Source: Pelagicoccus sp. SDUM812005
Lineage (GTDB): Bacteria > Verrucomicrobiota > Verrucomicrobiia > Opitutales > Opitutaceae
Length of the DNA stretch: 64,000 nt
Assembly: GCF_031127875.1 (NCBI RefSeq)
Contig: NZ_JARXIA010000007.1
Location: 186,001-250,000, forward strand
Direction of reading: 5' to 3'
The notes under the pieces are model-generated. The model was not told the origin of the DNA. It saw only the letters and a program-made list of their open reading frames with translations, and ran no database searches. The translations under genes and the position numbers were made by a program. This document shows positions 9,675-46,600 of this stretch, piece by piece. How positions within the stretch are numbered: position 1 is the first letter of the stretch; every line of letters begins with the position of its first letter.

Positions 9675-9749
9675 AGGCTCCGGGCTCGCAGGACGGGGGG
9701 GCTTTTTGCGCTCCAGTTCTCCTCTGGGGAGGTCTCGCAATTGAAGAAT

Positions 9750-9794: not shown

Positions 9795-9877
9795 TTGGCC
9801 GATTCGTTACAAGTTCCGTCTCTAGATTTACAAGCCTTTCCAAGTGAAATGACTGTAAATCAAAAACTTAGGAGACG

Positions 9878-11779: not shown

Positions 11780-12011
11780 GTGAAGCTGCGGTGACAACGC
11801 CTGGTTGTTTTGGATGCTTGAGCGTCTAGGTTCCGCTCTGGTTTGGCGTTTCTTGTGGCGGGGTTCCCTCGCTTTGGCAAGCGCGGCTCCGATTGAAGGC
11901 CTTATGTATTCACTATTATATTACCAAAGTTCGAAGCTAGAAACATGCGCCGATTACGATTCTTGATGAATGATTCGGGGCTTCGTTTCTAGCGACCCTT
12001 TTCCAAAATCC

Positions 12012-13751: not shown

Positions 13752-13826
13752 GCTATGTTTCCTCGGCTGATGCGAATCACTGCTTGTTCGAGAATGCTCG
13801 GGATGGGCCATTTAATGCGTTGTTCA

Positions 13827-15272: not shown

Positions 15273-15298
15273 TAGTTACTATCCCATCAAATGTTACT

Positions 15299-16687: not shown

Positions 16688-16708
16688 TGTTTCAATCTCC
16701 ACGAAATT

Positions 16709-19700
16709 ATGCTCCTGATGCCCCGCTTTAAGAACTTTTCCTGTTTCCTGATAATACTGTCTTTGTTCTGCTGTTCCCTATGGGCGGCGGATAAGGCTCC
16801 TTATGATTTGAGAGTGGGCGACGGTATCGTTGATCCATTGGGATACCACGATACGAGACCGCGCTTTTCGTGGAAGCTGGCAGACGAGCGATTTGGCGCC
16901 GCGCAGCTTGCTTACCAAGTTCGGGTCGTAAGCTCTACTGAAGATGCCACGCTCTGGGATAGCGGCAAGGTAGAGTCGGGGCAGTCGGTTTACGTGCAGT
17001 ATGCGGGTGAGCCATTCACCTCGAGGGAGAAGGTGTATTGGAAAGTCAGGTACTGGGATCAGGAAGGCGATGTGTCCCCATGGAGTCAGTGGGCAAAAAT
17101 CGAGTACGGATTGCTTGCCAGCTACGATTGGTCCGCTAAATGGATATACCAGCCAAAGGTGAGGAGCCTGGAAGGGATCGAGATCACTAAACTAACGTAT
17201 GGAAGACATCGATACAGGATCGATGTAACGGATGCGATCCTGAACTCGGTGAAGGATGATCCCGATCGGATCTTTAGCATTCGGGTAGGGGAAGGAGAGC
17301 TCTTCGAGCGAGAGGAGCGTACCGGAAGTCCGATGGCACTGACGATCGATTACCGAGAAAACGGCGAAGACAAGCAGTGTCTCAGGTGGGATGGACAACT
17401 GATTGAAATTCCACCCCCCGATGCTTGTAACGTGCCCTACTTTCGCAAGGAGTTCGAGCTGGATGAGCTTGAGGGAACGGCTCGACTCTACGTTACGGCG
17501 CGTGGAATTTTCGAGGTCGAAATCAATGGGAAGCGGGTGGGACGAGACGCCTTCGCTCCAGGTTGGACCGACTATTTTCAGCGTATAGAAACGCTCACCT
17601 ACGATGTAACCGACTACCTGGTCGAGGGAAGGAACGTGATTGGCGCGCGAGTGGCCAAGGGGTGGTACGCGGGCGAGGAGGGAGAGGGAATCGGCAAGTT
17701 AGGTCCGAGCGATGTGAACCGGGGGCTCGGTGGACAGGTTCAGGAATTTTTGTGTCAGCTTGAGATTGCGGGTGCGGGTGGGAGCGAAGTAGTGGTTGCG
17801 ACCGATGACTCTTGGACGTATTTCGATCAGGGGCCGGTCGTGAAATCGGAAATCTACTGGGGCGAGGACTATGATGCCCGGAACGAGATTCCAGGTTGGA
17901 GCTCGGTGGGATACGATGCGGCAGGTTGGAAACGAGTTGAAGCGGCTTCCTTGGATGGGGTTTCTCTCCTGCCGAAGACCTTCCAAACCGTTACTGTACG
18001 GAAGGTGCTGACGCCTACTGAGATCGTGTCGGCGGGCGAGGGGACTGTCGTTTTCGATATGGGACAAAACATGGTGGGCTGGCCTGCCATCGACTTGCCT
18101 GGGCTCAAAGATAAGAAAATTCGGATACGGGTGGCAGAGATGCTGGAGCAGGACGGTTCGCTCTACATAGAAAACTATCGGAACTCCCGTTCGCAGGCAA
18201 CCTACGTTCCTGCGGAAGACGGAAAAGTTCGGTGGCGACCCACCTTCTCGTTTTTTGGATACAGGTTCGTAGAGGTTTCTGGGTATGATACGAATGAAGT
18301 CCCGAGTCTAGGTTGGGTAGCTGGAGAGGTATTGCACACCAGCTTTGAACAGACTGGAAGCTTCACTTCGTCGCATGCCAAGCTGAACCAGCTGCAAAGC
18401 AATATTGAGTGGGGACAAAGAGGCAACTTTCTCGATATTCCGACTGATTGCCCGCAGCGCAACGAGCGTCTTGGTTGGGCGGGCGATGCCCAGACTTTTT
18501 CGGCGACATCGCTTTTCAATTTTGATGTGCATGCCTTTTGGAAAAGCTGGCTGAAGACCTTTCGTGAGCACCAGAGCGAGGATGGCCGCTTACCTGTCGT
18601 CGCTCCCAACGTGGGAACGTTTTGGGGAGGGCCTCGACTTTCGCCGGCCTGGGGCGACGCGATCGCCATTGTTCCTTGGGAAGTGTATCTGCAAACTGGC
18701 GACGTTACTGTGTTAGAGGAGAATTACGAGGCGATGAATAAGTACGCGGATCTCTACCGTAGACGCAGCCCGAACCACATAGCTCCGGATACTGGATTCG
18801 GCGATTGGCTGCAGCCGTTGACTGAGAGAGGGGTTATCGACCCTAAGGAGCCTCGTTATGGATCCACTCCTCGTCCACTTATAACGACAGCATTTTTTGG
18901 ATACACTACAACTATTTGCGCCAAGGTTTCTGAACTCTTGGGGAAGGAAGAAGAGGCGAAACGTCATTGGAGCGAGTTGGAGAAAATAAGAAGCGCGATT
19001 CGGCGAGAGTTTCTGGACGCGGACGGTCGCTTGACGACGCCGGTGGAAACGCAGACTGGCTACGCTCTACTGATTGCCTTCGATTTAGTTGAGGAAGATT
19101 TGAAACCGAAGTTGGGAGAGCATCTCGCAGCATTGGTGAGAGCTGAGAACAATCGATTGAATACAGGTTTTGTCGGTTGTTCCTACTTAACTCGGGTTCT
19201 GGACAGCACTGGAAATATCGACGAAGCGCTTGCGGTACTTTTTACCAGCGAGTACCCGTCATGGTTCTACTCTATCGATCAGGGAGCCACTACGATTTGG
19301 GAGCGGTGGAACAGCTACAACCACGAGACTGGGTTTGGCGACGCGAAAATGAATTCATTTAACCACTACGCCTACGGAGCGATCGGTCGTTGGATGTACG
19401 AGCGACTGGCTGGCTTGGCTCCGGACGAAAGCAACCCTGGCTACAAGCACTTTATCGTAGCTCCGATTTTCGAGTCGCCGTTGGAGTTCGCGGAAGCCCG
19501 CCTTGAGACTCGCTACGGCGAAGCTCGAACTCGTTGGGAAAAGGTTTCGGGGGGCATCCGCATGCGGGTCATCGTTCCGCCTAACAGTTCTGCGACGATC
19601 CGCATTCCTGAAAAACTGTCTAAGCAAGTTCGCTGGGCAAATGCCCCACATGGGGCAAAACTCAAATTTACCAAAAATGATGGAATCGCAGTGTCGGAAA

Positions 19701-19738
19701 TCGTGGCTGGAGCCTACGACATACTGCTCCTTCCCTAG
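16709..19738 (+). CDS. Alpha-L-rhamnosidase, GH78
   Basis: This is a 1009-residue exported enzyme hydrolysing terminal alpha-L-rhamnose. After a signal peptide (LFCCSLWA) comes an N-terminal fibronectin-like beta domain (PRFSWKL, YQVRV), a Bac_rhamnosid_N beta-sandwich with the carbohydrate-binding pattern LYVTARGIFEVEINGKRVG, the concanavalin-like domain, the (alpha/alpha)6 catalytic domain (about 560-900) and a C-terminal beta domain. The catalytic motif DCPQRNERLGWAGD holds the general acid Glu586, and TTIWERWNSY holds the general base Glu865. The length is normal for the family. It sits between sulfatases 3 and 4 in the operon, so rhamnose exposed by desulfation is the likely substrate. 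Confidence 0.93.
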   Translation: MLLMPRFKNFSCFLIILSLFCCSLWAADKAPYDLRVGDGIVDPLGYHDTRPRFSWKLADERFGAAQLAYQVRVVSSTEDATLWDSGKVESGQSVYVQYAGEPFTSREKVYWKVRYWDQEGDVSPWSQWAKIEYGLLASYDWSAKWIYQPKVRSLEGIEITKLTYGRHRYRIDVTDAILNSVKDDPDRIFSIRVGEGELFEREERTGSPMALTIDYRENGEDKQCLRWDGQLIEIPPPDACNVPYFRKEFELDELEGTARLYVTARGIFEVEINGKRVGRDAFAPGWTDYFQRIETLTYDVTDYLVEGRNVIGARVAKGWYAGEEGEGIGKLGPSDVNRGLGGQVQEFLCQLEIAGAGGSEVVVATDDSWTYFDQGPVVKSEIYWGEDYDARNEIPGWSSVGYDAAGWKRVEAASLDGVSLLPKTFQTVTVRKVLTPTEIVSAGEGTVVFDMGQNMVGWPAIDLPGLKDKKIRIRVAEMLEQDGSLYIENYRNSRSQATYVPAEDGKVRWRPTFSFFGYRFVEVSGYDTNEVPSLGWVAGEVLHTSFEQTGSFTSSHAKLNQLQSNIEWGQRGNFLDIPTDCPQRNERLGWAGDAQTFSATSLFNFDVHAFWKSWLKTFREHQSEDGRLPVVAPNVGTFWGGPRLSPAWGDAIAIVPWEVYLQTGDVTVLEENYEAMNKYADLYRRRSPNHIAPDTGFGDWLQPLTERGVIDPKEPRYGSTPRPLITTAFFGYTTTICAKVSELLGKEEEAKRHWSELEKIRSAIRREFLDADGRLTTPVETQTGYALLIAFDLVEEDLKPKLGEHLAALVRAENNRLNTGFVGCSYLTRVLDSTGNIDEALAVLFTSEYPSWFYSIDQGATTIWERWNSYNHETGFGDAKMNSFNHYAYGAIGRWMYERLAGLAPDESNPGYKHFIVAPIFESPLEFAEARLETRYGEARTRWEKVSGGIRMRVIVPPNSSATIRIPEKLSKQVRWANAPHGAKLKFTKNDGIAVSEIVAGAYDILLLP

Positions 19739-19750
19739 AAACAGATTGAA

Positions 19751-21283
19751 ATGAAACTTAGACTTACCCTGATATTCGCGGCGATCTGCTTTTGTAAGTT
19801 CGCTGCTACCGAAGAACGAAAGAACGTCATTTTCATTTTGGCGGACGATCTCGGCTGGGCCGATACAACTCTCTACGGCCATACTGAACTCTTTCAGACT
19901 CCTAATTTGCAGCGCTTGGCGAGCCGTGGCATGCTTTTTAACCGAGCGTATTCAAACAGCCCGCTCTGTTCACCCACGCGGGCGAGCGTGCTTACAGGGC
20001 AACTGCCGGACCGACACGGCTCGGTGGCGCCCACGCATCACCAGATGCCCGTTCGGCTTGAGTCGATAGCGGATTCCACAGGTAATGCCGCCTTCCAAGC
20101 GGTGCCTATCAAGTCTCTCACTCGGCTTGATACCGCTTGGCCCACGCTGGGCAAGCAGATGCAAGGCGCGGGGTACGCGACGGGCCATTTTGGCAAGTGG
20201 CACCTCGGTCGAGAGCCTTACAGCCCATTGGAGCACGGTTTCGACGTCGACATCCCGCATTGGCCAGGTCCGGGCCCAGGAGGTTGGTTTGTTGCTCCTT
20301 GGAAGTATCCGGAGTTCAAGGAGAACTTGCCCAAGGAGCACATCGAGGACCGCATGGCGGAAGAGGCGATTGCCTGGATGAAGCAGCAGGCGGAGGGCAA
20401 GCCGTTCTACTTGAATTACTGGCAGTTCTCGGTTCATGCTCCTTTCGACGCGAAGCAAGGTCTCGTGGATTACTATCGTCCTAAGATCGATTTCAATAGC
20501 AAGCAGACCTCTCCCACTTACGCCGCGATGGTCCACTCGCTAGATGATGCCATTGGTACATTGCTCGACTACGTAGATGCGGCTGATATCGCGGATGATA
20601 CCGTCATCATCTTTGCGTCCGATAACGGAGGGAACGAATACAACGGTATTCCGGAAACAGATATGGAGGGCAAGGAATACGTCAGCGCTCCGACCGATGG
20701 AGGACCGTTGCGGGGAGGTAAGGCCAGTATTTACGAAGGAGGCATCCGCACGCCTTGCATTGTGGTTTGGCCGGGGATGGTAGAACCAGGTTCGGTCAGC
20801 GATGAGCCAATACAAACCTCTGACTTTTATCCGACGCTGCACGCTCAGCTTGGTATCGAGCTGCCGCAGGGACACGTGGTGGACGGGATCGACATAACCC
20901 CAGCATTGAAAGGTGGGGAATTGGAGCGCGAGGCGATCTTTACCTATTTCCCGGTCATGCCAAAGGTGCCTGAGTGGTTGCCTCCCTGCATGTCCGTGCA
21001 CGTGGGGGATTGGAAGCTGATTCGAATCTTTCACGAAGGCAAGAACGGTGGCCATGCCTATCGCTTGTTCAATCTGGCTGAAGACCTAGGCGAGACAACA
21101 GACCTTTCCGAGAAGCATCCCGAGATTGTTGCGCGTTTGGATAGGCTGATGGAAGATAGGCTCGTGGCGTCTGGCGGTCTGCAGCCCAAGCGAAATGAAA
21201 ACTTCGATCCCGCGAAGCACCGTCCGGACCTTTACGGGGTCCAGGTCGGAGGGCTGAAGGTCGCTAAGGGGAGAGACGAGTAG
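19751..21283 (+). CDS. S1-family (formylglycine) sulfatase, secreted
   Basis: The product has 510 residues with a short signal peptide (IFAAICFCKFAA). The core begins NVIFILADDLGWADTTLYG. The catalytic motif is CSPTR with Cys73, followed by GHFGKWHLGREP, the VHAPFDAKQG substrate loop and the late metal motif IFASDNGGNEY. An insertion around residues 88-125 separates the nucleophile segment from the Lys/His segment. It is the last gene of the operon, 12 nt after the rhamnosidase, and nearly identical in layout to the cytoplasmic sulfatase at 58441-60222, including the GKWHLG and DNGGN elements. The probable substrate is a sulfated oligosaccharide of the same polysaccharide. Confidence 0.92.
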   Translation: MKLRLTLIFAAICFCKFAATEERKNVIFILADDLGWADTTLYGHTELFQTPNLQRLASRGMLFNRAYSNSPLCSPTRASVLTGQLPDRHGSVAPTHHQMPVRLESIADSTGNAAFQAVPIKSLTRLDTAWPTLGKQMQGAGYATGHFGKWHLGREPYSPLEHGFDVDIPHWPGPGPGGWFVAPWKYPEFKENLPKEHIEDRMAEEAIAWMKQQAEGKPFYLNYWQFSVHAPFDAKQGLVDYYRPKIDFNSKQTSPTYAAMVHSLDDAIGTLLDYVDAADIADDTVIIFASDNGGNEYNGIPETDMEGKEYVSAPTDGGPLRGGKASIYEGGIRTPCIVVWPGMVEPGSVSDEPIQTSDFYPTLHAQLGIELPQGHVVDGIDITPALKGGELEREAIFTYFPVMPKVPEWLPPCMSVHVGDWKLIRIFHEGKNGGHAYRLFNLAEDLGETTDLSEKHPEIVARLDRLMEDRLVASGGLQPKRNENFDPAKHRPDLYGVQVGGLKVAKGRDE

Positions 21284-25347: not shown

Positions 25348-28143
25348 TCAAGGAAGCTCGGAGTCGATCGAATAACTGCCTGAATCGAGCGTAAAGGTAG
25401 CGTACCCATCGCAGATTCCTTCGAGTTTAACGTCGGAGCATTCCAACAAGGCGTTACCTCCCATGGTGATGAGATCGGCAGCCTTGCTTGGAATGGAAAT
25501 CCTAGCGGTGGTGTTGGCTGGAATGGATACCTCCCACTGGAATCGTTCGCCATTTTTTGACCACTCGCTTTTGATTGTTCCGTACGGTGAATCGTGGCTC
25601 GTTTTTACCCAATCGAGTTGATCGAAACCGTATGGCTTCAAATGGACCACCTTGAAGCCGGGCGCTCCTGGGCGGATGCCCCCGAGGCTTTCGTGAAACC
25701 ACGCTGCAAAGCCGCTTTGCATAGGGTGATTGAGGGATCGTCCCGAAGTGCTCCGCCCACGTGGAAATTCGTCGAAAATTTCGGGCCAAGTTGTCAGGCC
25801 TTGCGACAGAGCGTAGCTGTAGCTTGGCCAGGTGGGCTTTTTTAGGGCTGCGATGGCGGCATCGCTTGACCCGCTTTCGCTGAGCAGGCTGTAGATGGGC
25901 CGTCCTCCATGGATGCCTACGGCTACGTGACCTAGGTGGTTTGCGGTGACATCGTGTACTAGCGAGTTGGAGACGCGTTCCCGTTGGCGTTCGGGAAACA
26001 ATTCGAACCGCAAGGAAATCGCATTTGCGGTCTGCGATCCGTATCCGCCTATGGATTCGTCGAAATAGGTTTTGTTGAAGGCATCCTTCGTTCTTCGCGC
26101 GAGTTCTTTGAACTGTTCTACGTCATCTTGCTTGCCGAGATATTCCGCAAAACGCTGCATGACGCGTAGCGTGCCGTAATAAAACGCAGTTGAGCTCAGT
26201 TCGACCGGACATTCCATGTGCTTGTTGCCGCCGGGAGGGCACCAATCTCCATAGCCACGGATCACAATGCCATTCTCGGTGAGAGATTCGACATATTGGA
26301 TCCAGCGTTTGAGGTGAGGGTAGTGACGTGTGAACACGTCGGTGTCACCGTAGTAAAGGTATTGATACCAAGGAAGGAGAATGTAGGCGGATCCCCAGTC
26401 AGGGCGAGCTTCCTGGCAGACGCGTCGGCCGGTGGCGACGTTCGTGGGAATGCCAGGGGTTGCCTTTTGGCCCCAGTAGGTGACGCCTCCGCGACCGAGG
26501 TTCGTCTCGATGTCGTCCGCGAATTTTGTCCAGAACTGGGCCATGTCGTAGTTGAAAATGGCCGTTTCTCCGACAGCGTGCGTATCGCCTAGCCAGGCGC
26601 ATTTTTCGCGATGCGGACAATCTTCCAGAATGGAGTGGAGGTTGTCTTCGATGGTCCACATTGACGCGTCGTAGATTCTATTCAATACCTCGTCCGAACT
26701 TAGGAAGTAGCCTCGTCGGGCGACGGCGGTGCGTACGAATACGCCTTGGAGCGTATCGCTGTCAGGGGGTGAACTGAGTCCCTCGATTTCTATGTATCTG
26801 AAACCGTGATACGTAAAACGAGGTTCCCATGTTTCGATTCCGTCACCTTTGCAGATGTAGATGTCCATTTGCTCGAGTCCAGTGGCGTGAACCCCGGTAG
26901 TAATCATGTCGAGCTCTCTTCGATCGTCGGTCAGGATTTCAGAGTAGCGCAGGGTGAGTTGCGTGCCTGCCGGCTCTTGAACCCGGATCTTTGCCCAACC
27001 AGCTATATTTTGACCGAGGTCAAAGATCCATTTTCCGTCATGTCCTCGGATTATGGATACTGGGGCGAGGGATTTTATCCTCCTGATGGGGTCGATCATT
27101 TGCGCTTGTAGCTTTGGAGCGAGGGCTTCGCATCGCGTTGCGTGCGACCAGCTTGAGTCGTCGAATCCTGGAAGCTGCCAGCCGTCCATTTCCAGTCGAG
27201 CGTCATAGCTCTCCCCTCCGTAGACGTTGTCGTAGAGTATAGGGCCGCTGGATGCTTTCCATGAAGAGTCTGAATTAATGGTTTGAGTGGAGCCGTCTGC
27301 GTAGTCCACGAGGATTTTGGCGATAAGCCCTGGCCTGCCGTAGTTGAGGCCGGGGGCATTGAAGGCATGGTTCTGACCATAGAAACCACTGCCCAGCTGC
27401 ACTGTGGCGACGTTTTCACCGGGGTGGAGAGCGGCGGTGATGTCATGGGTGACGTAAAGAGCTCGTCGATCGTAAGTGACGTTGGCGGGGTCGAGAACGG
27501 CGTCGCTGCAAGGGATCCCGTTGATTTGCATTTCGCTGTATCCGAGACCGCATAGGTAGGCGCGGGCTCGCTTGATTCCGGGGCGGACCGTGAAGGTTTT
27601 CCTGAACAGAGGCGAGGGGTAGGATTGGACTTCCTTGGCCTCGTTAATGAACTTGGTTTTGAGTGACCTTTTGGTAAGGGGAGAGCTTCGGTTGTCGCCC
27701 TCCATTTGTATCCAGTTGGCGCCGTCCCAATCCGACTGCGAAGGAAGTCCGATTTCCCAGCTTCCGATGGTTGACCACTCGCTCTTCCTGTTATTCTGGT
27801 CCCAGAACTGGACGCTCCAGTAGCAAGTCTGGCGCGACGAAAGGGGGAGGCCTGCATAGCGAAGGTGGAGACTTTGATTAGATTCTACTTTTCCGCTGTC
27901 CCAAAGGTCGGCTTGGCGGGACTTGATTCCTTCTGGCGTAGTTGAGACGAGAATGCGGTAGGCGGTTTGCTGGACCGCATGTTCCTGTGACTCGATTTGC
28001 CAGCTCAAACGTGGGCTTGTCTCGTCGATCCCGAGTGGGTCCCTTTTGTATTCGCAGGTCAGGTTGACCACGCTAGCTGCGTAGCTTTGAGCCACAAGGA
28101 GCAGGCTGGCGAGTAGAGAGAGAAGGCGATATTTCGATGGCAT
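25348..28143 (-). CDS. Alpha-L-rhamnosidase, GH78 (DCPHREK subgroup)
   Basis: This 931-residue exported enzyme has a signal peptide (LLASLLLVAQSYA). The fibronectin-like start (LTCEYKRDPLGIDETSPRLS), Bac_rhamnosid_N region (ARAYLCGLGYSEMQINGIPC) and catalytic (alpha/alpha)6 domain are all present. The acid motif is DCPHREKCAWLGD with Glu513, a variant of the usual DCPQRDER, and the base region reads GLTTWPEIFDEF rather than WERW. These changes place it in another GH78 subgroup than the two other copies, so a different linkage or rhamnose position is likely. It starts 24 nt after the lyase/GH105 fusion gene and is probably co-transcribed with it. Confidence 0.9.
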   Translation of the reverse strand: MPSKYRLLSLLASLLLVAQSYAASVVNLTCEYKRDPLGIDETSPRLSWQIESQEHAVQQTAYRILVSTTPEGIKSRQADLWDSGKVESNQSLHLRYAGLPLSSRQTCYWSVQFWDQNNRKSEWSTIGSWEIGLPSQSDWDGANWIQMEGDNRSSPLTKRSLKTKFINEAKEVQSYPSPLFRKTFTVRPGIKRARAYLCGLGYSEMQINGIPCSDAVLDPANVTYDRRALYVTHDITAALHPGENVATVQLGSGFYGQNHAFNAPGLNYGRPGLIAKILVDYADGSTQTINSDSSWKASSGPILYDNVYGGESYDARLEMDGWQLPGFDDSSWSHATRCEALAPKLQAQMIDPIRRIKSLAPVSIIRGHDGKWIFDLGQNIAGWAKIRVQEPAGTQLTLRYSEILTDDRRELDMITTGVHATGLEQMDIYICKGDGIETWEPRFTYHGFRYIEIEGLSSPPDSDTLQGVFVRTAVARRGYFLSSDEVLNRIYDASMWTIEDNLHSILEDCPHREKCAWLGDTHAVGETAIFNYDMAQFWTKFADDIETNLGRGGVTYWGQKATPGIPTNVATGRRVCQEARPDWGSAYILLPWYQYLYYGDTDVFTRHYPHLKRWIQYVESLTENGIVIRGYGDWCPPGGNKHMECPVELSSTAFYYGTLRVMQRFAEYLGKQDDVEQFKELARRTKDAFNKTYFDESIGGYGSQTANAISLRFELFPERQRERVSNSLVHDVTANHLGHVAVGIHGGRPIYSLLSESGSSDAAIAALKKPTWPSYSYALSQGLTTWPEIFDEFPRGRSTSGRSLNHPMQSGFAAWFHESLGGIRPGAPGFKVVHLKPYGFDQLDWVKTSHDSPYGTIKSEWSKNGERFQWEVSIPANTTARISIPSKAADLITMGGNALLECSDVKLEGICDGYATFTLDSGSYSIDSELP

Positions 28144-28167: not shown

Positions 28168-30573
28168 TCAGCGCTCGGGTATCGATTTCAGAAGTCGGGT
28201 GAGTTCGGCTCCAGCTGCGAGGAAGGCACCGGTTCCATAGACTTCAGTGCGGTCGGGCCATGCCGAGCCCGGTTCGGCGCCAATCGGCTGGACGTAGCCT
28301 AGCATTCCCTCGGGGGTGATGGAGCGCGCGAGCGCTCCCCAGGCCTTCAGGACAACCGGTTCGTAGGTATCGCGGTCAAGGATGCCGGCGTTGATGCCCC
28401 AAGCTAGGCCGAAACAGTAGAACCCGGTGCCGCTGGTTTCTGGAGTAGGGTAGGTATCGGCCTCGAGAAGGCTCATGGCCCAATGGCCGTTTGGGGTTTG
28501 CAGGTAGGCAATGCGGCGGGCCATCTTTTTGTAGATATCTACGAAGTACCGGTGCTGTTCGGAGTTTTTAGGCAGTTCGGGGATAAGCTCTGCGAGGCCG
28601 CCGAACACCCAACCGTTGCCGCGAGCCCAAAATATTTTGCTGCCATTGTGTCTTTGTTCGATGAAACGGGTGTCGCGGAAGTAGAGGTCTTCGGTCGGAT
28701 CGAAGAGAAGTTCGGTGATTGCCTTGTATTCGTCGAACATCCAGTCGCGGTACTTTGGATTGCCCGTGACGGAGGAGAGTTTGGCCCAGACGGGTGGGGC
28801 CATGAAGAGCGAATCGCACCAGCTCCAACGATCTTCTCCGATTCGATGGTTCCAGGTGAGGGGAACGGTCGATGGCTTGGCTATGATTTTGTCGAACTGG
28901 TCGACTATATTTTTGTACTTAGATTTGTCTCCAAATTTCTGGTACAAGCTGAGGTATAGCTGCCCGATGCAGTGGTCGTCCGCGTGGTAGAAGCGAGCGG
29001 GTCGGAGTTTCCAATGCATGTTTTCTGAAAGATCTATCAACCATCGGTAGTAGCGGGGGTCCTCTGAGATCTCAGCCCACTTTTCCATCCCGACCATTAG
29101 GGTGGCGGCCGGCCATTCATTGGCGGTGTAGGGGCGTTTGCGGTGCTTGTTGTCGAAGACCTCGCCGAAGTGCTCGATTTGCCAGTCTGCGACGCGGCTA
29201 AGCTCATTGCGTACCGAAGCAAGGGAGGGGCGTTCTTCCGGGGGATCTGAGCGACCGATCCAGTAATCAACTACAGAAACGGTTTTCCCGGTTTGTCCGA
29301 TGACGGAAATCCAGCCATCCGCCCGGCTGCGGTCCACTTGTATTTTGCTGTCCTCAAACAGCGTTGCTGGACCCGAAGCGAGCTTGTCTCGTTTGGCGAA
29401 GCTGTCAGCAGCTGCGCTCTCGATGCCCTCTGGAGTTACGAGATAAACGCGATCGTCATGGGCCGCCAGGCTTCCGAGGGACGGCGAAGATTGGCGACTC
29501 CATTGGCCAGTCGTCGGATTGCGCTGAAAGTAAGCTGGAGAGCCGTCCTCGCCTTTCATCAATACGTGGACGCGACCGCTGGCATCGACCGTCATGGAGC
29601 CCCCGTTTACGAATTTCGTTCCAGATGGGATCGACCAGACTACGGCGCTTTGGGTGTCGGCAGTAATAAAGGCGTTGCCTCTAATACCGATGGTGTTGCC
29701 CTCGTTGTCTTTCCAGGTGTTGCCTTGGTCGTCGCTGTAGGCATAGCAGAGGTCGTGAGTCGTGTCGGCCTTGGGCGAGTCGCGCCAGCACCAGGTCAAG
29801 TGTCGACGGCCGTTGTGGGTTGCCAAGGAGTGAGGGTAGGCGTTCACGGTTTTATTTCCGCGGGACCAACTCTTGTCGATGATCTTTGCCTGTGCGGGAT
29901 CGTTGAGGAACCACTTGCCGTTGCTGTATTCAAAAAGGCAGGAATCGGCGCTGCCCGAGCCGCCGTTGAGGCGTAGGTAGAGAGATAGGTTTTTTCCGTG
30001 GTTGGCGAAGCTTGGGTAGGTGACGCCTTCAATCTTCGGACCGCCTAGATTGTCCTGTACCGGGCCGAAGAGCTTGTCGTTCCATGAGTAGTTTTCTGGG
30101 CTTCGGGCAACGGGGTGTAGACTTTTTCGGTACCGAAGGGTGGAACCATGGTGGTCGAAGCTTAGGTGTAGGTAGCCGTCCGCTGAGATGCCCAGCGCTA
30201 CTTTCTCATGACCGTCGCCAAAACCGCGGGCGATGGGGCCGACTTTTCCTCGGTCGCCGTTTTCGGTTCGTTGGTATCCGGTAAGCGATACCGCGTGCCA
30301 GGAGCCTCCAGGCAGCCTCCGTCTTGCAACGGTAACTTGGCGCTGGTCGTCCCAGAAGGCAGCGTATTGCCAGCCAGCATGGCTTTGTAGGGCTCCGGGG
30401 CCGAAATTCCACTTGGCCGGCCTCTCCACAATATCTTTGGGCATAGCGCGCGTGCTGACAGTCGAGATTCTGTGGAACGAGGTCTCCGCCCGCGTCTGAG
30501 CTGGCGCTAGATAGGCGCCTATAAGACAGGCGAGCGGAGCGAGTAGTTTTTGTAAGGCGTTGTTGCTGAGCAT
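28168..30573 (-). CDS. Fusion of BNR_4 beta-propeller (ulvan-lyase-like, PL24/PL25) and GH105 unsaturated uronyl hydrolase
   Basis: The product is 801 residues, started at the ATG that opens a signal peptide (LLAPLACLIGAYLAPAQTRA); a longer frame to 30852 reads through the operator and is not protein-like. Residues ~30-420 form a BNR_4 seven-bladed propeller with HEKVALGISADGYLHLSFDH and a second His of the DHHG element, VTYPSF and repeated Asp-box-like turns, the family that contains PL24/PL25 ulvan lyases. Residues ~440-795 form a GH105 (alpha/alpha)6 barrel with FYHADDHCIGQLYL, WSWCDSLFMAPP and WARGNGWVFGGLAEL. A lyase leaves a 4,5-unsaturated uronate at the non-reducing end and GH105 removes it, so the fusion would perform two consecutive steps. 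It leads the operon with the GH78 gene. Confidence 0.78.
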   Translation of the reverse strand: MLSNNALQKLLAPLACLIGAYLAPAQTRAETSFHRISTVSTRAMPKDIVERPAKWNFGPGALQSHAGWQYAAFWDDQRQVTVARRRLPGGSWHAVSLTGYQRTENGDRGKVGPIARGFGDGHEKVALGISADGYLHLSFDHHGSTLRYRKSLHPVARSPENYSWNDKLFGPVQDNLGGPKIEGVTYPSFANHGKNLSLYLRLNGGSGSADSCLFEYSNGKWFLNDPAQAKIIDKSWSRGNKTVNAYPHSLATHNGRRHLTWCWRDSPKADTTHDLCYAYSDDQGNTWKDNEGNTIGIRGNAFITADTQSAVVWSIPSGTKFVNGGSMTVDASGRVHVLMKGEDGSPAYFQRNPTTGQWSRQSSPSLGSLAAHDDRVYLVTPEGIESAAADSFAKRDKLASGPATLFEDSKIQVDRSRADGWISVIGQTGKTVSVVDYWIGRSDPPEERPSLASVRNELSRVADWQIEHFGEVFDNKHRKRPYTANEWPAATLMVGMEKWAEISEDPRYYRWLIDLSENMHWKLRPARFYHADDHCIGQLYLSLYQKFGDKSKYKNIVDQFDKIIAKPSTVPLTWNHRIGEDRWSWCDSLFMAPPVWAKLSSVTGNPKYRDWMFDEYKAITELLFDPTEDLYFRDTRFIEQRHNGSKIFWARGNGWVFGGLAELIPELPKNSEQHRYFVDIYKKMARRIAYLQTPNGHWAMSLLEADTYPTPETSGTGFYCFGLAWGINAGILDRDTYEPVVLKAWGALARSITPEGMLGYVQPIGAEPGSAWPDRTEVYGTGAFLAAGAELTRLLKSIPER

Positions 30574-30841: not shown

Positions 30842-31049
30842 TTGTCCCGCAATTGTCTTTGTTGGGTTAGCGAACTGTATTATTTCCACCTTGGATAGTC
30901 TGCCTGAATCTCGCTCGCTTTAAGTGAGCAGTTGCCGCCCCTTGCCGGTGGGCGAGGTTTTCTCGGCTATTCCTTCCCCTACCTAACCCTTAGGGACCGG
31001 CTCGGTTCCAGTGAAGCTCTCCTCTGTGGAGATATTCAACATACAAACG

Positions 31050-34013
31050 ATGATGATATACCCCCCACTAAAAGAAATCCCCACGTGGAAACTTATTTAC
31101 GGAGCTCTTGTATTGAGCGCTGCCTATTCTCCCGCCTTAATGGCTCAAGAGGAGGATGTTGATGTGTATGAACTCTCTCCTTTTACGATCGATGCGGGGT
31201 CCGAAGATGGCTATCGCGCGACGCAAACGCTTAGTGGCACTCGCCTCAAAAGTGACCTGAAAGATGTTGGTGCCTCGATGACGATCTTTACGGAAGAGAT
31301 CATGAACGATCTTGCGGCGAATAGTATAGAAGACATTCTGAACTTCGCCCCGAATACAGACGTTTTCGTAAACGATCTTAACGATTCTCAAGGATTTGGA
31401 AACGACTTCATAAACAATGACGTAAAGTATGTTACGCGCGGTGGTTCCACCACGATTGTAGGACAGAATTTCTTCCAGACCGGCATTCCGAACGATCGTT
31501 TCAGCACGGAGCGTCTGACCTTTACGCGCGGGCCGAACGCGGTGCTATTCGGCCTGGGAAACCCCGCTGGAGCTTTCGTCTCGAGTACGAAGCAAGCTCA
31601 CAGCAAGAAGAAGACTTCGATCTCGACTCAAATCGACGATAGAGGGTCCTTCCGTATTAATCTAGACCATAACCAACCGATCGTCGAAGACAAGCTGGCG
31701 GTTCGCTATTCGGGGCTTTACGATGCGAGCAATCACTACCTGCCTGACGCTGAGGGCCTGAGCAAGCGGCACTTCTTCACCGTTCGTTACCAGCCCCTGA
31801 AAGGGACGGTGTTGAGAGCGAACTACGAGCGAGGGACCATAGACAAGCCGGCGGTTCGACCGTGGCCTATCTTCGACGCCTACAGCGCTTGGATGCAGGA
31901 AGGGTCTCCGTTGCGAGCGACTCCCAGTACGCCTCGTGTCGAAGGTATGGAGAACGATGGCGCTCGTGACTTGATCTCTACGGAGTTCAGTCCAGCTGGT
32001 ACGCAGATCCCTACTATGACTTTGCGAAACCAAGCTCGAAGCGCCAAGCCTAGCTTCGCTGCGGGATTCGCTCCCTCGGGCAATAAATTGTCTTCTATAG
32101 ACGAATCCGTGTTTCCTATCTTTCATACCACGTTCGCGGGATTGGCGGCGCGATTGCACGACTACGAGACCAACAGTTTCTTTTTGGAACAGAAGATCAC
32201 CGACAAGATGTATTTGGAGCTCGCATACAATACTGTTGAAAACGATTACCGTTCTTTCAATGGCATGCGGGGAGGGGACGCGATGTTGCATTTCGACGTC
32301 AACGAGCAGCTTCCTGACGGTAGTCCCAACCCCAATGTAGGCCTGCCGTACGTTCAGGCTAGGCCAACCCTTATCGATGCGGACAGCGAGAGAATTAACA
32401 AGCGAGCCATGTTGTCCTACGATTTGGACTTTACCGATAGGGACGATTGGGTGAAGCACCTCGGAAGGCACCAAATGGCAGTTTTTTTGGAGGACTCTAG
32501 GGTCGAGTCGTGGGCGAGCAACAATGTACATCGCAATGTAACGCCGCTCTTCACTACTTCACCGCAGACGCGCATAACGCACCCATGGAACCAGCTTTCG
32601 TATCGATTCTATTTCGATCCGGAAAACGGCAAGCTCAGTACTGCCGAGGGCAGGCGGATTCTTGAGGCACCGGTCATTTATTCAGGAGATCCCATTCCGG
32701 AGCCGGGCCCGAATGGGATCACGCCGGCCTTTGTGGCCCAGCAAGGGCCTAACGTACGAGACGTAGACGTCGAGACCGAGGCGCTCGCGATCCAAAGCTT
32801 CTTCTTCAACCGCCGGTTAGTGGTCACGAATGGTTTTCGTGAAGATACGCAAACTTCATTCGCCGGTTTGCCTGCAGACTTCAGGGATTTCCGCGATGAT
32901 GACCTGAACAACGTGAACCCACGCACGTTGAGCCCCCGCGAGCTCTTTGCGGATAGTCCCGAATCTCGGGGCGGTAGCACTAAAAGCCAAGGTGTTGTCT
33001 TTCACGCTACCAAGTTCATGAGCTTGAGCTACAATACGTCGAACAACTTCTCGGTAAACGCGACCACGCGCGACCTGTACGGAAACCTATTGCCGAATCC
33101 GCAGGGCGATGGCGAAGATATTAGCGTGAAATTCGATCTTATGGATCGGAAGATGTTCTTGGACTTTACGTATTATACCAATTCCACGGTTGATAAGCTT
33201 GATGATATAAGAAGAACCCCTGCAGGCGATTTTCTGCAGGTGCGAGACATATGGAATACGATCTATAATGAAACGGGAGATCCGAAGTTTCAATCGCCTC
33301 CGTACGCTACGCTTGGATCGATCTGGAAGGATCGTACGACTACGACCGCAAAGGGATGGGAGTTTTCAATGACGGCTAAACCTGTTAAGGGCTGGAATAT
33401 CCGATTGAACGGCAGCAAGCGCGGCAACAGTACTACCACCGAACGTGGTGTCGTTACCCGCCAGTACATGAACGAGTACCTCCCTATCATCAAAGCCAAC
33501 GAGACTTGGATGGGATATGTTTCCGGCGACGGGGAAGGGCGAGCGGTATCCGAAATCGTAGCAGATCTAGAGGAAACCCTTCGCAACTTCGAGCGCATCA
33601 AGGATCTACCAGCCGATGTGTTCGCCCCGAACTGGACGGCCAACCTAATCACTTCCTATCGATTCGCAGGTGACTCGAGCCTCAAGGGCTTCTCGATCGG
33701 GGGTAGCATGAATATGCGTGGGAAGACTATCAACGGTTTCGGTGTTGACGATTCTGATACGGTATTGCCCGATGTTCCGTTCTACTCGCCAGGATACGAA
33801 ATATTTGGGGCGTGGTTTGGATACGACAGAAAAATCTTAAACGATAAAGTAAATTGGAAGTTTCAGGTCAATATTCGCAACGTATTCGACGATTACACGG
33901 TACACCCGCTACGGTCGGTTGACACCAGAGACGGAAACAACACCTCGAGCACTGCTTTGTACATGTTGCGTGAGCCGAGGACCATTCGTATAACAAACAC
34001 GTTTACGTTCTAG
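31050..34013 (+). CDS. TonB-dependent receptor 2
   Basis: The start is taken at ATG 31050 (with a second ATG directly after it), just before the signal peptide (WKLIYGALVLSAAYSPALMA); a GTG at 31011 would add 13 residues. The 987-residue outer-membrane receptor has the shared ELSPFTIDAGSEDGYRAT element, a plug with LSGTRLKSDLKDVGAS, VTRGGSTTIVGQNFF and RGPNAVLFGLGNPAGA, and a barrel ending ITNTFTF. It is a close paralogue of the next gene: long stretches such as GMRGGDAMLHFDVNEQLPDG are identical in protein but differ in codons. Likely cargo is a polysaccharide fragment. It has its own operator and terminator. Confidence 0.93.
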   Translation: MMIYPPLKEIPTWKLIYGALVLSAAYSPALMAQEEDVDVYELSPFTIDAGSEDGYRATQTLSGTRLKSDLKDVGASMTIFTEEIMNDLAANSIEDILNFAPNTDVFVNDLNDSQGFGNDFINNDVKYVTRGGSTTIVGQNFFQTGIPNDRFSTERLTFTRGPNAVLFGLGNPAGAFVSSTKQAHSKKKTSISTQIDDRGSFRINLDHNQPIVEDKLAVRYSGLYDASNHYLPDAEGLSKRHFFTVRYQPLKGTVLRANYERGTIDKPAVRPWPIFDAYSAWMQEGSPLRATPSTPRVEGMENDGARDLISTEFSPAGTQIPTMTLRNQARSAKPSFAAGFAPSGNKLSSIDESVFPIFHTTFAGLAARLHDYETNSFFLEQKITDKMYLELAYNTVENDYRSFNGMRGGDAMLHFDVNEQLPDGSPNPNVGLPYVQARPTLIDADSERINKRAMLSYDLDFTDRDDWVKHLGRHQMAVFLEDSRVESWASNNVHRNVTPLFTTSPQTRITHPWNQLSYRFYFDPENGKLSTAEGRRILEAPVIYSGDPIPEPGPNGITPAFVAQQGPNVRDVDVETEALAIQSFFFNRRLVVTNGFREDTQTSFAGLPADFRDFRDDDLNNVNPRTLSPRELFADSPESRGGSTKSQGVVFHATKFMSLSYNTSNNFSVNATTRDLYGNLLPNPQGDGEDISVKFDLMDRKMFLDFTYYTNSTVDKLDDIRRTPAGDFLQVRDIWNTIYNETGDPKFQSPPYATLGSIWKDRTTTTAKGWEFSMTAKPVKGWNIRLNGSKRGNSTTTERGVVTRQYMNEYLPIIKANETWMGYVSGDGEGRAVSEIVADLEETLRNFERIKDLPADVFAPNWTANLITSYRFAGDSSLKGFSIGGSMNMRGKTINGFGVDDSDTVLPDVPFYSPGYEIFGAWFGYDRKILNDKVNWKFQVNIRNVFDDYTVHPLRSVDTRDGNNTSSTALYMLREPRTIRITNTFTF

Positions 34014-34039
34014 CCTACATAGATTGAGTGAGCTTTTCG

Positions 34040-34073
34040 GAGGCAGCGGCTATTAGCCGTTGCCTCTCTTTTT
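34040..34073 (+). terminator. Intrinsic terminator after receptor 2
   Basis: The stem GAGGCAGCGGCT (34040-34051) and AGCCGTTGCCTC (34055-34066), with one G-T pair and a 3-nt loop, is followed by a T-rich run with one C. It lies 26 bp after the stop. Confidence 0.85.
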
Positions 34074-34171
34074 GTCGATTCGGTTAGTGTTGCCGGAACC
34101 CTCTTCTAATGAGGGGTAGCCTTAGGTTTTCCTCAGGGGCGTATCGATTTTTCAAGGTATCTGGGGTGGCG

Positions 34172-34184
34172 GCGGACAGTCAGG
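34172..34184 (+). promoter_or_regulatory. CTGAC-W-GTCAG palindrome, copy 5 (before receptor 3)
   Basis: GCGGACAGTCAGG matches 11 of 13 positions and continues GTTG as in copy 4. Its centre (34178) is 44 bp before TAAAAT (34222-34227); TTGTTC 16 bp before that is a possible -35. The receptor start is 195 bp from the centre. Confidence 0.7.
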
Positions 34185-34372
34185 TTGCTTGGCCGTTGAT
34201 TGTTCGCTTGTTTGAATCATGTAAAATAGCCTGCCCGCCCCCATCTTCATAAGATAATGAGAGTCTCTCTGTTTTGTGAAGCGTGGGGTGCTCGCTTGTT
34301 TAGGTTATAGTTAAGGGAGCCGTGGCGGCTACCTGTTTTCCCTGTTCATCTAGAATCAATTGATGGCAAATT

Positions 34373-37345
34373 ATGAAAAAATACCCCATACATGTCGCGT
34401 TCCCCTTTAGGAACGTTGTTTGCGGAGTTCTTGCAATTGGCGCGATCCAAGCCCCTAGGCTTCTAGCCCAAGGGGAGGAGCCAGAGGTCTTTGAGCTCTC
34501 TCCATTCACTGTCGATGCCGGTTCTGAAGACGGCTATCGAGCCACCCAAACGCTCAGTGGTACACGGCTCAAGAGCGACTTGAAGGATGTCGGATCCTCT
34601 CTGACTATCTTCACCGAAGAGATCATGAACGATCTCGCTGCGAACAGCATCGAGGATTTGCTGAACTATGCTCCGAATACGGACGTATTCGTAAACGAGC
34701 TCACAGACACGCAAGGGTTCGGAAACGACTTTCTCAACCAGGACGTCAAGTACGTAACCCGAGGGGGAGCCACCACTATCGTGGGACAGAACTTCTTCCA
34801 GACGGGTATTCCGAATGACCGTTTCAACACAGAGAGGCTAACGTTTACGCGAGGACCCAACGCCGTGCTCTTCGGTCTGGGCAATCCATCGGGCGCCTTC
34901 GTTTCCAGCACTAAGCAAGCAGGCGACAAGACCACGACCAGCATTGTTACCCAGATCGATGACCGCGGTTCTTTCCGCATCAATTTCGACCACAATCAGG
35001 TCCTGGTAGAGGACCGGCTTGCGATACGTTACTCGGGGCTACACGACGCCAGCAACCATTACCTGCCTGACGCGGAAGGTCTCAGCAAGCGTCATTTCGT
35101 GACCCTACGCTTCAAGCCCTTCGAGAAGACTGTGCTTCGCGCGAACTACGAGCAGGGGACTATCGACAAGCCAGCAGTACGCCCTTGGCCGATCTTCGAC
35201 GGCTACGGTCCATGGATCAAGGAAGGCCGTCCTACTCGCGCCACTCCAACCACCCCGAGGGTTGCTGGAATGGTAAACGATGGAGCTCGCGATATCATCT
35301 CCACGGCTTTCAGTCCTGGCGGAACGCAGATTCCGACTCAGTCACTGCTAAATCAGGCCCGCAGTGAGACCCCGAGCCTAGCGACGGGATTCTTTCCTTC
35401 CGGGAACAAGCTTTCATCTATCGATGAGGACATCTTCCCGATCTTCCATACCACTTTTGCGGGGCTCGCGGCTCGCTTGCATGACTACAATACTAAGTCG
35501 TTTTTCATCGAACAGCAGATCACCGATAGGATGTTCGTCGAGCTCGCTTACAACACTGTCGAGAACGACTACCGCTCCTTCAACGGTATGCGCGGCGGCG
35601 ATGCGATGCTCCACTTCGACGTGAACGAGCAATTGCCGGACGGTAGCCCCAACCCGAACGTGGGACTTCCCTATGTGCAAGCTCGTCCGACGCTTATCGA
35701 TGGGGACAACGAGCGAGAAGACATGCGGGCTATGGTCTCCTACGACCTCGACTTCACCCAGCGAGACGGCTGGGCCCAGCATCTGGGCCGTCACCAAATG
35801 GCAGTCTTCTTTGAGGACGGCAACGAGCAGTCCTGGTCGAGCAACAACGTGCATCGCAATATCACGCCGACCTTTCCAAACGTGCCGCAGAGCCGTATCA
35901 CCCATGGATGGAACCAACTCTCCTACCGTTTCTACTTCGAACCTGAAACGGGTAAGCTCAGCACTGCAGCAGGTCGCCAAATTTTGGAGGCGCCCGTCAT
36001 CTACGCCGGAGATCCGATACCCGAGGCGCATCCCAGCGGCATCACCCCCGGTTTTGTTGCCCAGCAAGGGCCTAGCGTCAGAGATGTAGAAGTGAAAACG
36101 GAGGCCCTTGCCGTTCAAAGTTTCTTTTTGAATCGACGTCTCGTCGTCACCAACGGCTTCCGCGAAGACACGCAGACCTCTTGGGCTGGTGTGCCAGGAG
36201 ATTTTACGGATCTGCGAGATGCGGATTTGAACAACGTCAATCCGAGAACGCTTAATCCACGCGAGCTCTTTGCGGGCGAACCGGACAAGCAGATCAAACG
36301 CGGCGGCAGTACCGCGAGCCAAGGAGTGGTCTTTCACGCGACTCCGTTCATGAGCTTGAGCTACAATACGTCGAACAACCTGTCGATCACCGCGAACACC
36401 TACGACCTCTATGGGAACCTCCTTCCCAACACGCAGGGAGATGGAGAGGATTTCAGCGTCAAGTTCGACATTTTAGATAGGAAGATGTATCTGGATTTCA
36501 CCTACTACACGAATTCCACGGTAGACAAGCTCGACGACATTCGTGAAACCCCAGCGGGCAGCTTCCTGCAAGTTCGCGATATTTGGAACACTCTTTTCAA
36601 TGAAACGGGCGACGTTAAGTTCCAATCGCCTCCTTACGCGACCATCGGATCGGTCTGGCGTGACCGCGCGAGCACTACTGCTAAAGGCTGGGAGTTCTCG
36701 ATGACGGCGAAGCCGGTCAAAGGCTGGAACGTTCAACTAAACGGCAGTAAACGTGGCAATAGTACCACTACCGAACGTGGCGTGGTAACGCGGCAGTACA
36801 TGAATGAATATCTGCCGATTATCAAAGCCAACAGTACGTGGATGAATTACGTGTCGGAAGACGGTCAAGGTCGTCTTGTTTCCGAAATCGTTGCTGAGCT
36901 TGAGGAGACGCTGCGAAATTTCGATCGCATCAAGGATCTTCCAGCTGACGTCTTCGCGCCGAACTGGACGGCGAACTTGATCACCTCTTACCGCTTCAAT
37001 AAGGAATCCCGTTTTAAGGGATTTTCCATCGGCGGTAGCATGAACATGCGCGGCAAGACCATCAACGGCTTTGGGGTGGACTCGAACGGAGACGTGTTGC
37101 CCGACAAGCCCTTTTACGCTCCCGGTTACGAGATCTTCGGCACTTGGTTTGGATACGATCGGAAGATCCTCAACGACAAGGTAAAGTGGAAGTTTCAGGT
37201 GAATGTCATTAACCTTTTCGACAACTATACGGTTCACCCGCTTCGTTCCATCGATACGCAAGATGGAAACAACACGCCAAGCGTCGCCTTGTATACCTTG
37301 CGTGAGCCTAGGACGGTTCGGATAACAAACACCTTTTCTTTCTAG
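34373..37345 (+). CDS. TonB-dependent receptor 3 (paralogue of receptor 2)
   Basis: The 990-residue receptor has a signal peptide (CGVLAIGAIQAPRLLA), EVFELSPFTVDAGSEDGYRA, a plug with LSGTRLKSDLKDVGSS and VTRGGATTIVGQNFF, and a barrel ending ITNTFSF. It aligns with receptor 2 over its full length with few indels; a small insertion (KQIKRG region) is one difference. At the DNA level it uses more C-ending codons than receptor 2 (AAC, TTC, ACC), so the duplication is not recent or the copies evolved under different composition. Both copies keep all receptor features and their own operators, which argues for distinct ligands or dosage. Confidence 0.93.
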   Translation: MKKYPIHVAFPFRNVVCGVLAIGAIQAPRLLAQGEEPEVFELSPFTVDAGSEDGYRATQTLSGTRLKSDLKDVGSSLTIFTEEIMNDLAANSIEDLLNYAPNTDVFVNELTDTQGFGNDFLNQDVKYVTRGGATTIVGQNFFQTGIPNDRFNTERLTFTRGPNAVLFGLGNPSGAFVSSTKQAGDKTTTSIVTQIDDRGSFRINFDHNQVLVEDRLAIRYSGLHDASNHYLPDAEGLSKRHFVTLRFKPFEKTVLRANYEQGTIDKPAVRPWPIFDGYGPWIKEGRPTRATPTTPRVAGMVNDGARDIISTAFSPGGTQIPTQSLLNQARSETPSLATGFFPSGNKLSSIDEDIFPIFHTTFAGLAARLHDYNTKSFFIEQQITDRMFVELAYNTVENDYRSFNGMRGGDAMLHFDVNEQLPDGSPNPNVGLPYVQARPTLIDGDNEREDMRAMVSYDLDFTQRDGWAQHLGRHQMAVFFEDGNEQSWSSNNVHRNITPTFPNVPQSRITHGWNQLSYRFYFEPETGKLSTAAGRQILEAPVIYAGDPIPEAHPSGITPGFVAQQGPSVRDVEVKTEALAVQSFFLNRRLVVTNGFREDTQTSWAGVPGDFTDLRDADLNNVNPRTLNPRELFAGEPDKQIKRGGSTASQGVVFHATPFMSLSYNTSNNLSITANTYDLYGNLLPNTQGDGEDFSVKFDILDRKMYLDFTYYTNSTVDKLDDIRETPAGSFLQVRDIWNTLFNETGDVKFQSPPYATIGSVWRDRASTTAKGWEFSMTAKPVKGWNVQLNGSKRGNSTTTERGVVTRQYMNEYLPIIKANSTWMNYVSEDGQGRLVSEIVAELEETLRNFDRIKDLPADVFAPNWTANLITSYRFNKESRFKGFSIGGSMNMRGKTINGFGVDSNGDVLPDKPFYAPGYEIFGTWFGYDRKILNDKVKWKFQVNVINLFDNYTVHPLRSIDTQDGNNTPSVALYTLREPRTVRITNTFSF

Positions 37346-46455: not shown

Positions 46456-46600
46456 TAGGGGGTCTATCGCTTTCCTGATGGGCGCTCAGTGTACTTTGCG
46501 AACGAATGCCACTGGAGGAGGGCTTTCGTCGATTCAAGATGGAAGACTCCTCGGGAAACCGCTTCGACCAACTGCCCCTTATTCGCCAAATTTAACATCC

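Follow-up and report, generated by a model that had tools for sequence, protein, structure and literature searches.

A predicted exported protein joining a PL42-like propeller to a GH105 domain, encoded on a probable integrative island in Pelagicoccus

Introduction

The 64,000-nucleotide stretch of Pelagicoccus sp. SDUM812005 analyzed here (hereafter the window; positions 186,001 to 250,000 of contig NZ_JARXIA010000007.1, assembly GCF_031127875.1) carries on its minus strand a gene, at 28168-30573, whose predicted product joins an N-terminal BNR_4 propeller, resembling rhamnose-uronate lyases, to a C-terminal GH105 unsaturated-uronyl hydrolase domain. The question raised by this locus is whether a single exported chain could perform two successive steps of glycan breakdown that are elsewhere divided between two enzymes. 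According to the partial text of PMC8511951, ulvan pathways require a GH105 or GH88 enzyme after the lyase; the GH145/PL42 lyase BACPLE00338 of Bacteroides plebeius is described as freeing rhamnose, the unsaturated product then being sensitive to the GH105 enzyme BACPLE00337 (PMC8406133, partial text). The B. plebeius pair matches the case considered here in both activities and in their order; there the activities reside in two proteins, whereas in the window they would reside in one chain. From comparative analysis we favor, with moderate confidence, the view that the gene encodes an exported two-step enzyme borne on a mobile sugar-degradation island.

Results

The gene is a single unbroken frame of 801 residues, running from the ATG at 30573 to the stop codon at 28168-28170. 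An upstream extension of the frame to a TTG at 30852 is possible; the ATG was taken as the start because a signal peptide is obtained from it, residues 1-30 looking like a Sec signal peptide when judged by eye. Pfam places BNR_4 at residues 68-361 (E-value 7.5e-63) and Glyco_hydro_88, the Pfam family that covers GH105 here, at residues 460-794 (9.5e-78), both far over the cut-off. The layout is as follows.

28168-30573, minus strand: whole gene, predicted exported PL42-like propeller plus GH105 protein, 801 residues (open reading frame, Pfam)
30484-30573, minus strand: predicted signal peptide, residues 1-30, with a helix at 6-21 (judged by eye from the sequence; model)
29260-30474, minus strand: seven-bladed PL42-like propeller, residues 34-438 (Pfam, PDB sequence search, model, fold comparison)
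29224-29259, minus strand: short linker between the domains, about residues 439-450 (AlphaFold2 model)
28171-29223, minus strand: predicted GH105 unsaturated-uronyl hydrolase domain, residues 451-801 (Pfam, PDB match, Foldseek)

An AlphaFold2 model of the whole protein (mean predicted local distance difference test score, pLDDT, 76.7; predicted template modelling score, pTM, 0.61) shows a propeller at 34-438, a linker at about 439-450 and a helical barrel at 451-796, and matches both the PL42 lyase FoRham1 and the ulvan GH105 enzyme 4ce7 in Foldseek; in its alignment, six GH105 rows had 90-108 residues placed on the N-terminal half, and the arrangement of the two domains is not relied on. A further genome of the genus (G007, the window's own genome being G000) carries the identical gene (2406/2406 bases) between different flanks, so that the frame is no assembly slip of one genome. 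In these respects, the first-pass annotation, which had proposed from the letters alone one exported chain with a BNR_4 propeller followed by GH105 at these positions, was borne out.

The same annotation had linked the propeller to the PL24/PL25 ulvan lyases, and this did not hold. In a phmmer search of PDB sequences, the propeller matched FoRham1 of Fusarium oxysporum (7esk, 3e-32) and then Bacteroides GH145/PL42 proteins (5muk, 8e-23, and weaker), while no PL24 or PL25 chain was matched by the propeller alone at E-values up to 10. A profile built from 31 relatives, rich in GH145-type rows and so biased toward GH145, matched PL42/GH145 chains at 2e-86 to 2e-154 and PL24 chains at 4e-17 to 8e-14; PL25 was not in its match list at E 0.1, which is inconclusive by itself. 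The fold comparison ran the same way: the model of the propeller (pLDDT 89.3, pTM 0.89) ranked FoRham1 first (Z 45.4, root-mean-square deviation 1.8 over 372 residues, 31% identity), followed by GH145/PL42 structures (Z 37.5-39.7), PL24 (31.7-32.8), PL25 (about 31) and lectins (24.6 or less). By sequence and predicted structure, the propeller is thus nearest to PL42 (former GH145), PL24 (LOR_107, Uly1) and PL25 (PLSV_3936) being more distant in both, although alike in fold, catalytic triad and type of linkage. Indeed, the partial texts of PMC8377490 and PMC10951650 describe a His-His-Asp triad common to the three families, all of which cut a bond of the rhamnose-glucuronate (Rha-GlcA) type, and for this reason the two-step chemistry survives the change of family.

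The active site was compared residue by residue with FoRham1, for which mutants of His85, His105, Asp83, Tyr150, Arg166 and Tyr202 are reported as impaired in the partial texts of the same two papers. All eight positions compared are kept in the window protein (8/8), namely those aligned to D83, H85, H105, Y150, R166, Y202 and R220, listed below, and S170 (S206); N275 (N323) and P223 (P267) are kept too.

30208-30216, minus strand: D120-G121-H122, with D120 equivalent to FoRham1 D83 and H122 to H85 (base/acid) (alignment)
30148-30150, minus strand: H142, equivalent to FoRham1 H105 (alignment)
30016-30018, minus strand: Y186, equivalent to FoRham1 Y150 (alignment)
29971-29973, minus strand: R201, equivalent to FoRham1 R166, the charge neutralizer (alignment)
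29836-29838, minus strand: Y246, equivalent to FoRham1 Y202 (alignment)
29782-29784, minus strand: R264, equivalent to FoRham1 R220 (alignment)
29602-29607, minus strand: N323-G324, equivalent to FoRham1 N275-Q276, the rhamnose-holding Gln being replaced by Gly (alignment)
29482-29505, minus strand: shortened site of the absent Arg (FoRham1 R331, BT3686 R333), an alignment gap (alignment)
30220-30261, minus strand: 14-residue clade-specific insertion, residues 105-118, NGDRGKVGPIARGF, with conserved basic residues, just before the catalytic D-G-H (alignment)
30379-30381, minus strand: H65, aligned with the posterior catalytic His48 of the GH145 enzyme BT3686 (alignment)

Residue counts and the propeller tree were taken from 96 rows, from which L061 (a duplicate of the record stretch of L040), L063 and all pieces no longer than 240 residues had been excluded. 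The neutralizing Arg, by pattern count, is present in the window protein (1/1), its close relatives (6/6), the other same-order fusions (3/3) and 70 of 73 other propellers, and in none of seven propellers of reversed domain order, which align poorly and whose residue readings are unsure. Two rhamnose contacts follow another course. The Gln276 position holds Gly in the window and in 6/6 close relatives, whereas 63 of 73 other PL42-like propellers have Gln (gap in four, another residue in six); at the Arg331 position the window and the same six relatives have a gap, as against Arg in 59, a gap in 11 and Lys in three of the other 73. In BT3686, the R333A substitution abolished activity on wine arabinogalactan protein (AGP), as stated in the partial text of PMC8406133. 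The insertion is shared by the window and five of the six close relatives (the sixth is cut off there), is found in 0/73 other PL42-like propellers, and is poorly modelled (pLDDT below 50 at residues 109-117). As regards H65, its alignment with His48 marks a place where a third active site could lie; the column shows no conservation within the clade (His 2, Tyr 2, Phe 1, gap 1 in the six close relatives).

On these alignments, we read the clade as one in which the +1 site has been kept and the -1 site rebuilt. Since the equivalents of the rhamnose-binding Gln276 and Arg331 are absent, the propeller is labelled PL42-like here and not a plain PL42 member. The expectation of a lyase active site stands in part: the eight FoRham1 positions are present, and an Arg essential in BT3686 is absent. 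Compared with the characterized PL42 enzymes (FoRham1, BT3686, BACPLE00338, BACCELL00856), with which it has in common the seven-bladed propeller, the +1 active-site set and the best sequence and fold match, the window protein differs in Q276 to Gly, the absent R331/R333, the extra 14-residue loop and the GH105 domain joined at the C-terminus.

The GH105 half matched 4ce7 best among PDB sequences (6e-57), followed by 5noa (3e-55), and as a helical barrel reached a Foldseek template modelling score of 0.83 on the length of 4ce7_B. The catalytic Asp is in place, as is a second acidic residue, D532, which we take to be the equivalent of YteR D88; both are invariant in the nine rows of the GH105 alignment (9/9).

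28813-28815, minus strand: D587, equivalent to YteR D143, the catalytic Asp (alignment to 1nc5; invariant in 9/9 GH105 alignment rows)

The motifs YHADD and WxWCDxLFMAPP occur in the window domain and in 4ce7, an unsaturated 3S-rhamnoglycuronyl hydrolase of ulvan degradation, and do not occur in 5noa, which we take to be the arabinogalactan-pathway GH105 BT3687 (the PDB entry title itself names BACCELL_00875). Both motifs are common across the verrucomicrobial GH105 domains compared, and the split grouping the window domain with 4ce7 is weakly supported (95/72) in a tree from which four rows of the deepest branch had been excluded. 4ce7 is a GH105 chain alone and, despite being the best match, it is not the sister of the window domain, which pairs with a stand-alone GH105 (L041; 100/100).

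For the architecture, which the first-pass annotation did not know to be described, no earlier description was found, and it is not unique: among titles and displayed abstracts of the open-access literature there was no paper describing a chain with a PL42/GH145-type propeller and GH105, and related genomes hold at least three other same-order and seven reverse-order fusions. The same-order chain is present in at least 5 of 57 genomes, the window's own included, namely G000 and G007 (the window's gene), G010, G020 and G035; among eight genomes of the genus, the fused window gene is found in G000 and G007 only. In the other three (L037, L038 and L039, respectively), the propeller belongs to a Bacteroidota-type GH145 group and the GH105 is a different one; against the BT3686 rhamnosidase model, the L037 propeller reaches 458 bits, below the cut-off of 700. 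The seven reverse-order GH105-BNR_4 chains (L042, in the window's genome, and L044 to L049) have a distant propeller and, as counted above, the PL42 neutralizer pattern in 0/7. For L042 (6642-9047 of that locus, G000:C96), the two neighbors scanned were GH2 and GH43. The 20 regions examined were chosen partly for long frames, and the frequency of fusion is not readable from them. Across the best 80 of at least 574 propeller loci, GH105 was in the same frame as the propeller in 0/80, and was found elsewhere in the DNA examined in 8/80, including one locus of the window's propeller clade (L060).

Phylogenetic placement argues against one common fusion. The window propeller falls in a clade of seven rows (Shimodaira-Hasegawa-like approximate likelihood ratio test, SH-aLRT, 100), and none of the six others has GH105 in the same frame. 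Approximately unbiased (AU) tests on the GH105 tree rejected a single clade both for the window plus the same-order chains (p 0.0006) and for all eleven chains (p 3e-6), the p-values being optimistic because the groups were chosen after the tree had been seen; a single event for all propeller-GH105 chains was rejected on these tests. The reversed-order lineage stands apart in both the GH105 and the propeller trees. At least two separate joinings are the simplest reading, and the reversed lineage would most simply be a third. The adjacent pair at L060 (a Pedosphaera metagenome-assembled genome) was considered as a direct unfused ancestor and rejected: its propeller is in the window clade, in a frame that ends in a BT_3233-family match, and its GH105 groups with GH105+DUF4861 chains, apart from the window GH105. 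Class-wide sampling of 384 genomes found window-clade propellers (at least 53% identity) in three genomes besides the window's own; at the best matches, the open frames of 428-488 residues leave no room for a GH105 domain.

Other combinations of these domains were noted. GH105 is also joined in related genomes to DUF4861, in both orders (L043, L051, L052, L053, L010), to an esterase (L050:4372-6465) and to GH95 (L011:22-2577), and a GH43-like domain is joined to BNR_4 (L056:5666-8125). In the window's own genome, contig C43 (L005, L007) has a frame given as 4620 residues with three BNR_4 matches, and another propeller (L002) has as its sister, in the propeller tree, a propeller from Pelagicoccus mobilis (Verrucomicrobiota, Opitutia).

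The fusion gene lies within a long segment that is nearly identical in G000 and G007.

9743-64000, no strand: in-window part of a 77.9-kb segment (G000:C96:195743-273658) with unrelated flanks (blastn comparison with G007)
9748-9795, no strand: 48-bp copy of the tRNA-Met 3' end at the left island end, a probable attachment site (sequence match)
9878-11281, plus strand: integrase gene near the left island end (Phage_integrase, E-value 2.5e-11; Pfam)

This segment, which runs from 9743 to 23.7 kb past the right end of the window, is 99.66% identical to G007:C50:18746-96653, with no differences in the 5 kb from window position 29743. The two genomes represent different species, since their rpoB loci are 94.9% identical over 4560 bases, their recA loci 82.5% over 3803, and their reverse-order genes (L042 and L044) 87%; the assignment of G007 to the window's own species, suggested by the 100% match of the gene, was ruled out on the rpoB and recA figures. 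Outside the segment, blastn at E 1e-10 found no match between the genomes, either on the left, where 18.7 kb of G007 was compared with 49.7 kb of G000, or on the right, where 23 kb of G007 was compared with the final 3 kb of the G000 contig. The left end carries an exact 46-48-bp copy of the tRNA-Met 3' end, the whole tRNA-Met being 103 kb further on the same contig in G007 and on contig C63 in G000, where the far end of the island runs toward the contig end and the right junction to the whole tRNA-Met is not seen. Neither the window nor seven flanking stretches gave a complete tRNA in an ARAGORN scan. Because an integrase lies beside the tRNA-Met 3' copy and the segment is nearly identical between species with unrelated flanks, it is probably an integrative island at a tRNA gene, recently transferred between species and holding the whole sugar locus. 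Immediately beyond the segment in G000:C96, the stretch at window-equivalent positions 87754-88309 shares 78% identity with the integrase region. This suggests that another element follows in tandem, and the island may be one member of a longer series.

The surroundings of the fusion gene are rich in sulfatase and rhamnosidase genes.

25348-28143, minus strand: GH78 alpha-L-rhamnosidase, 24 bp downstream of the fusion gene on the same strand (Pfam)
11970-21283, plus strand: cluster of four sulfatases and one GH78 (Pfam)
31011-37345, plus strand: two TonB-receptor-like genes, with the Plug domain slightly below the Pfam cut-off (Pfam)
46478-49501: further GH78 (Pfam scan)
58441-60222: further sulfatase (Pfam scan)

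The adjacent GH78 gene is probably co-transcribed with the fusion gene; promoter and terminator scans gave no signal clear of chance. Extracytoplasmic function (ECF) sigma and FecR genes are likewise present at the locus. Elsewhere in the window, a frame at 4739-7057 combines phosphodiesterase-type and endonuclease/exonuclease/phosphatase domains. Among loci of the close clade, L062 has its propeller among five open reading frames resembling the window sulfatases, L058 has GH78, GH3 and a sulfatase-like frame, L059 has a sulfatase-like fragment at its edge, L060 (a 3.7-kb contig) has a GH105 gene directly after the propeller gene, and L040 (a 4-kb contig) has a TonB-like frame. Owing to the sulfatases, GH78s and TonB-like genes at the locus, and to the sulfatases and GH78 near relatives of the clade, our best guess for the substrate is a sulfated rhamnose-uronate glycan.

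Discussion

In the mechanism that we propose, the propeller would break the L-rhamnose-alpha-1,4-glucuronate bond by beta-elimination, with H122 as base/acid, D120 and H142 in support and R201 holding the carboxylate, and would leave an unsaturated uronate at the new non-reducing end. The GH105 domain of the same chain would then hydrate and remove this residue, exposing the next sugar to the downstream-encoded GH78 rhamnosidase and to sulfatases from the same locus. Any channeling of the product, as put forward in the first-pass annotation, would be hypothetical. A multidomain protein that also unites two steps of ulvan degradation is P36 of Formosa agariphila, an S1_25 sulfatase plus GH78 (PMC8511951, partial text), although the steps and families are other ones. 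What supports the proposal in the window is a real protein in which the GH105 acid and, by alignment, most of the lyase site are in place, on a PL42-like propeller and with parallels in other joinings in related genomes.

The loss of two FoRham1 rhamnose contacts, together with the gain of a conserved basic loop near the active site, leads us to infer that the substrate rhamnose carries a sulfate or another substituent, or sits inside the chain; the sulfatases and GH78 rhamnosidases nearby point to the same kind of Rha-GlcA substrate. More tentatively, the window clade might represent a new subfamily of lyases, intermediate between PL42 and the ulvan-cutting families, with the PL42 core kept, the rhamnose subsite rebuilt and a loop for sulfated or internal rhamnose; in this genus, a GH105 domain would have been joined to it, and the fused gene would spread between species on a tRNA-borne island along with sulfatases and rhamnosidases.

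Several points weigh against the two-step proposal. On the sequence alignment, the Arg absent from the clade is the one essential in BT3686; activity on a plain PL42 substrate is therefore doubtful, and the propeller may even be inactive. In the close clade, none of the other six propellers shares a frame with GH105, and the window fusion is seen as near-identical DNA in two species of one genus, the two copies being of one recent origin. Moreover, GH105 is a promiscuous partner, as its joinings to DUF4861, an esterase and GH95 indicate, so that a fusion by itself says little about any special mechanism. For one close relative (L057), homologues of the window sulfatases, GH78s and GH105 were not found in the flanks examined. 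As for the island, a mix-up during assembly could in principle explain why the segment is nearly identical in the two genomes; this is disfavored by the flanks, which are unrelated on both sides and in both long contigs.

Among other explanations, the propeller may be a true ulvan lyase in function, endo-acting like PL24 and PL25, with the fused GH105 trimming the new ends. The YHADD and WxWCDxLFMAPP motifs shared with 4ce7 and not with 5noa, the abundance of sulfatases and rhamnosidases, and the loss of two contacts suited to a bare terminal rhamnose would all fit such an enzyme. We nevertheless regard it as unlikely, since the propeller is closer to PL42 than to PL24/PL25 in sequence and fold, the grouping with 4ce7 is weak and its motifs are common in the verrucomicrobial GH105s compared, and FoRham1 is credited with mere trace activity on ulvan in the partial text of PMC8377490. 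Slightly less probable still is an exo-acting Rha-GlcA lyase that takes rhamnose caps off AGP side chains in the manner of the characterized PL42 enzymes, after which GH105 would remove the unsaturated GlcA. Its strength lies in the best matches, FoRham1 and the Bacteroides enzymes, and in the lyase-then-GH105 sequence of B. plebeius (PMC8406133, partial text); the equivalents of Q276 and R331 are nevertheless missing in 7/7 clade members, and the GH105 motifs are unlike those of 5noa.

We give little credence to a propeller that is catalytically dead or only binds sugar, which would make the chain a GH105 enzyme with a targeting domain: the absence of the Arg essential in BT3686 speaks for it, and against it stands the retention of the other active-site residues, both in the window protein and, for complete sequences, in its close relatives. 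A GH145-type alpha-L-rhamnosidase working through H65 on the posterior face, with or without lyase activity, is highly improbable, for the alignment of H65 with BT3686 His48 is not matched by conservation in the six close relatives.

Conclusion

If the two-step proposal is true, the window protein would naturally combine in one chain what two enzymes otherwise do when rhamnose-uronate glycans are degraded, and could serve in the saccharification of ulvan or arabinogalactan. With the catalytic core conserved and known rhamnose contacts lost, it may offer a clear, testable case of a lyase fold turning to substituted instead of bare rhamnose. Since BNR_4 propellers and GH105 have been joined in several lineages, and in either order, the question arises whether the joining brings an advantage; separate joinings would, if true, show that the coupling of the two steps has been repeatedly favored, and the probable island shows how a whole pathway can move between species.

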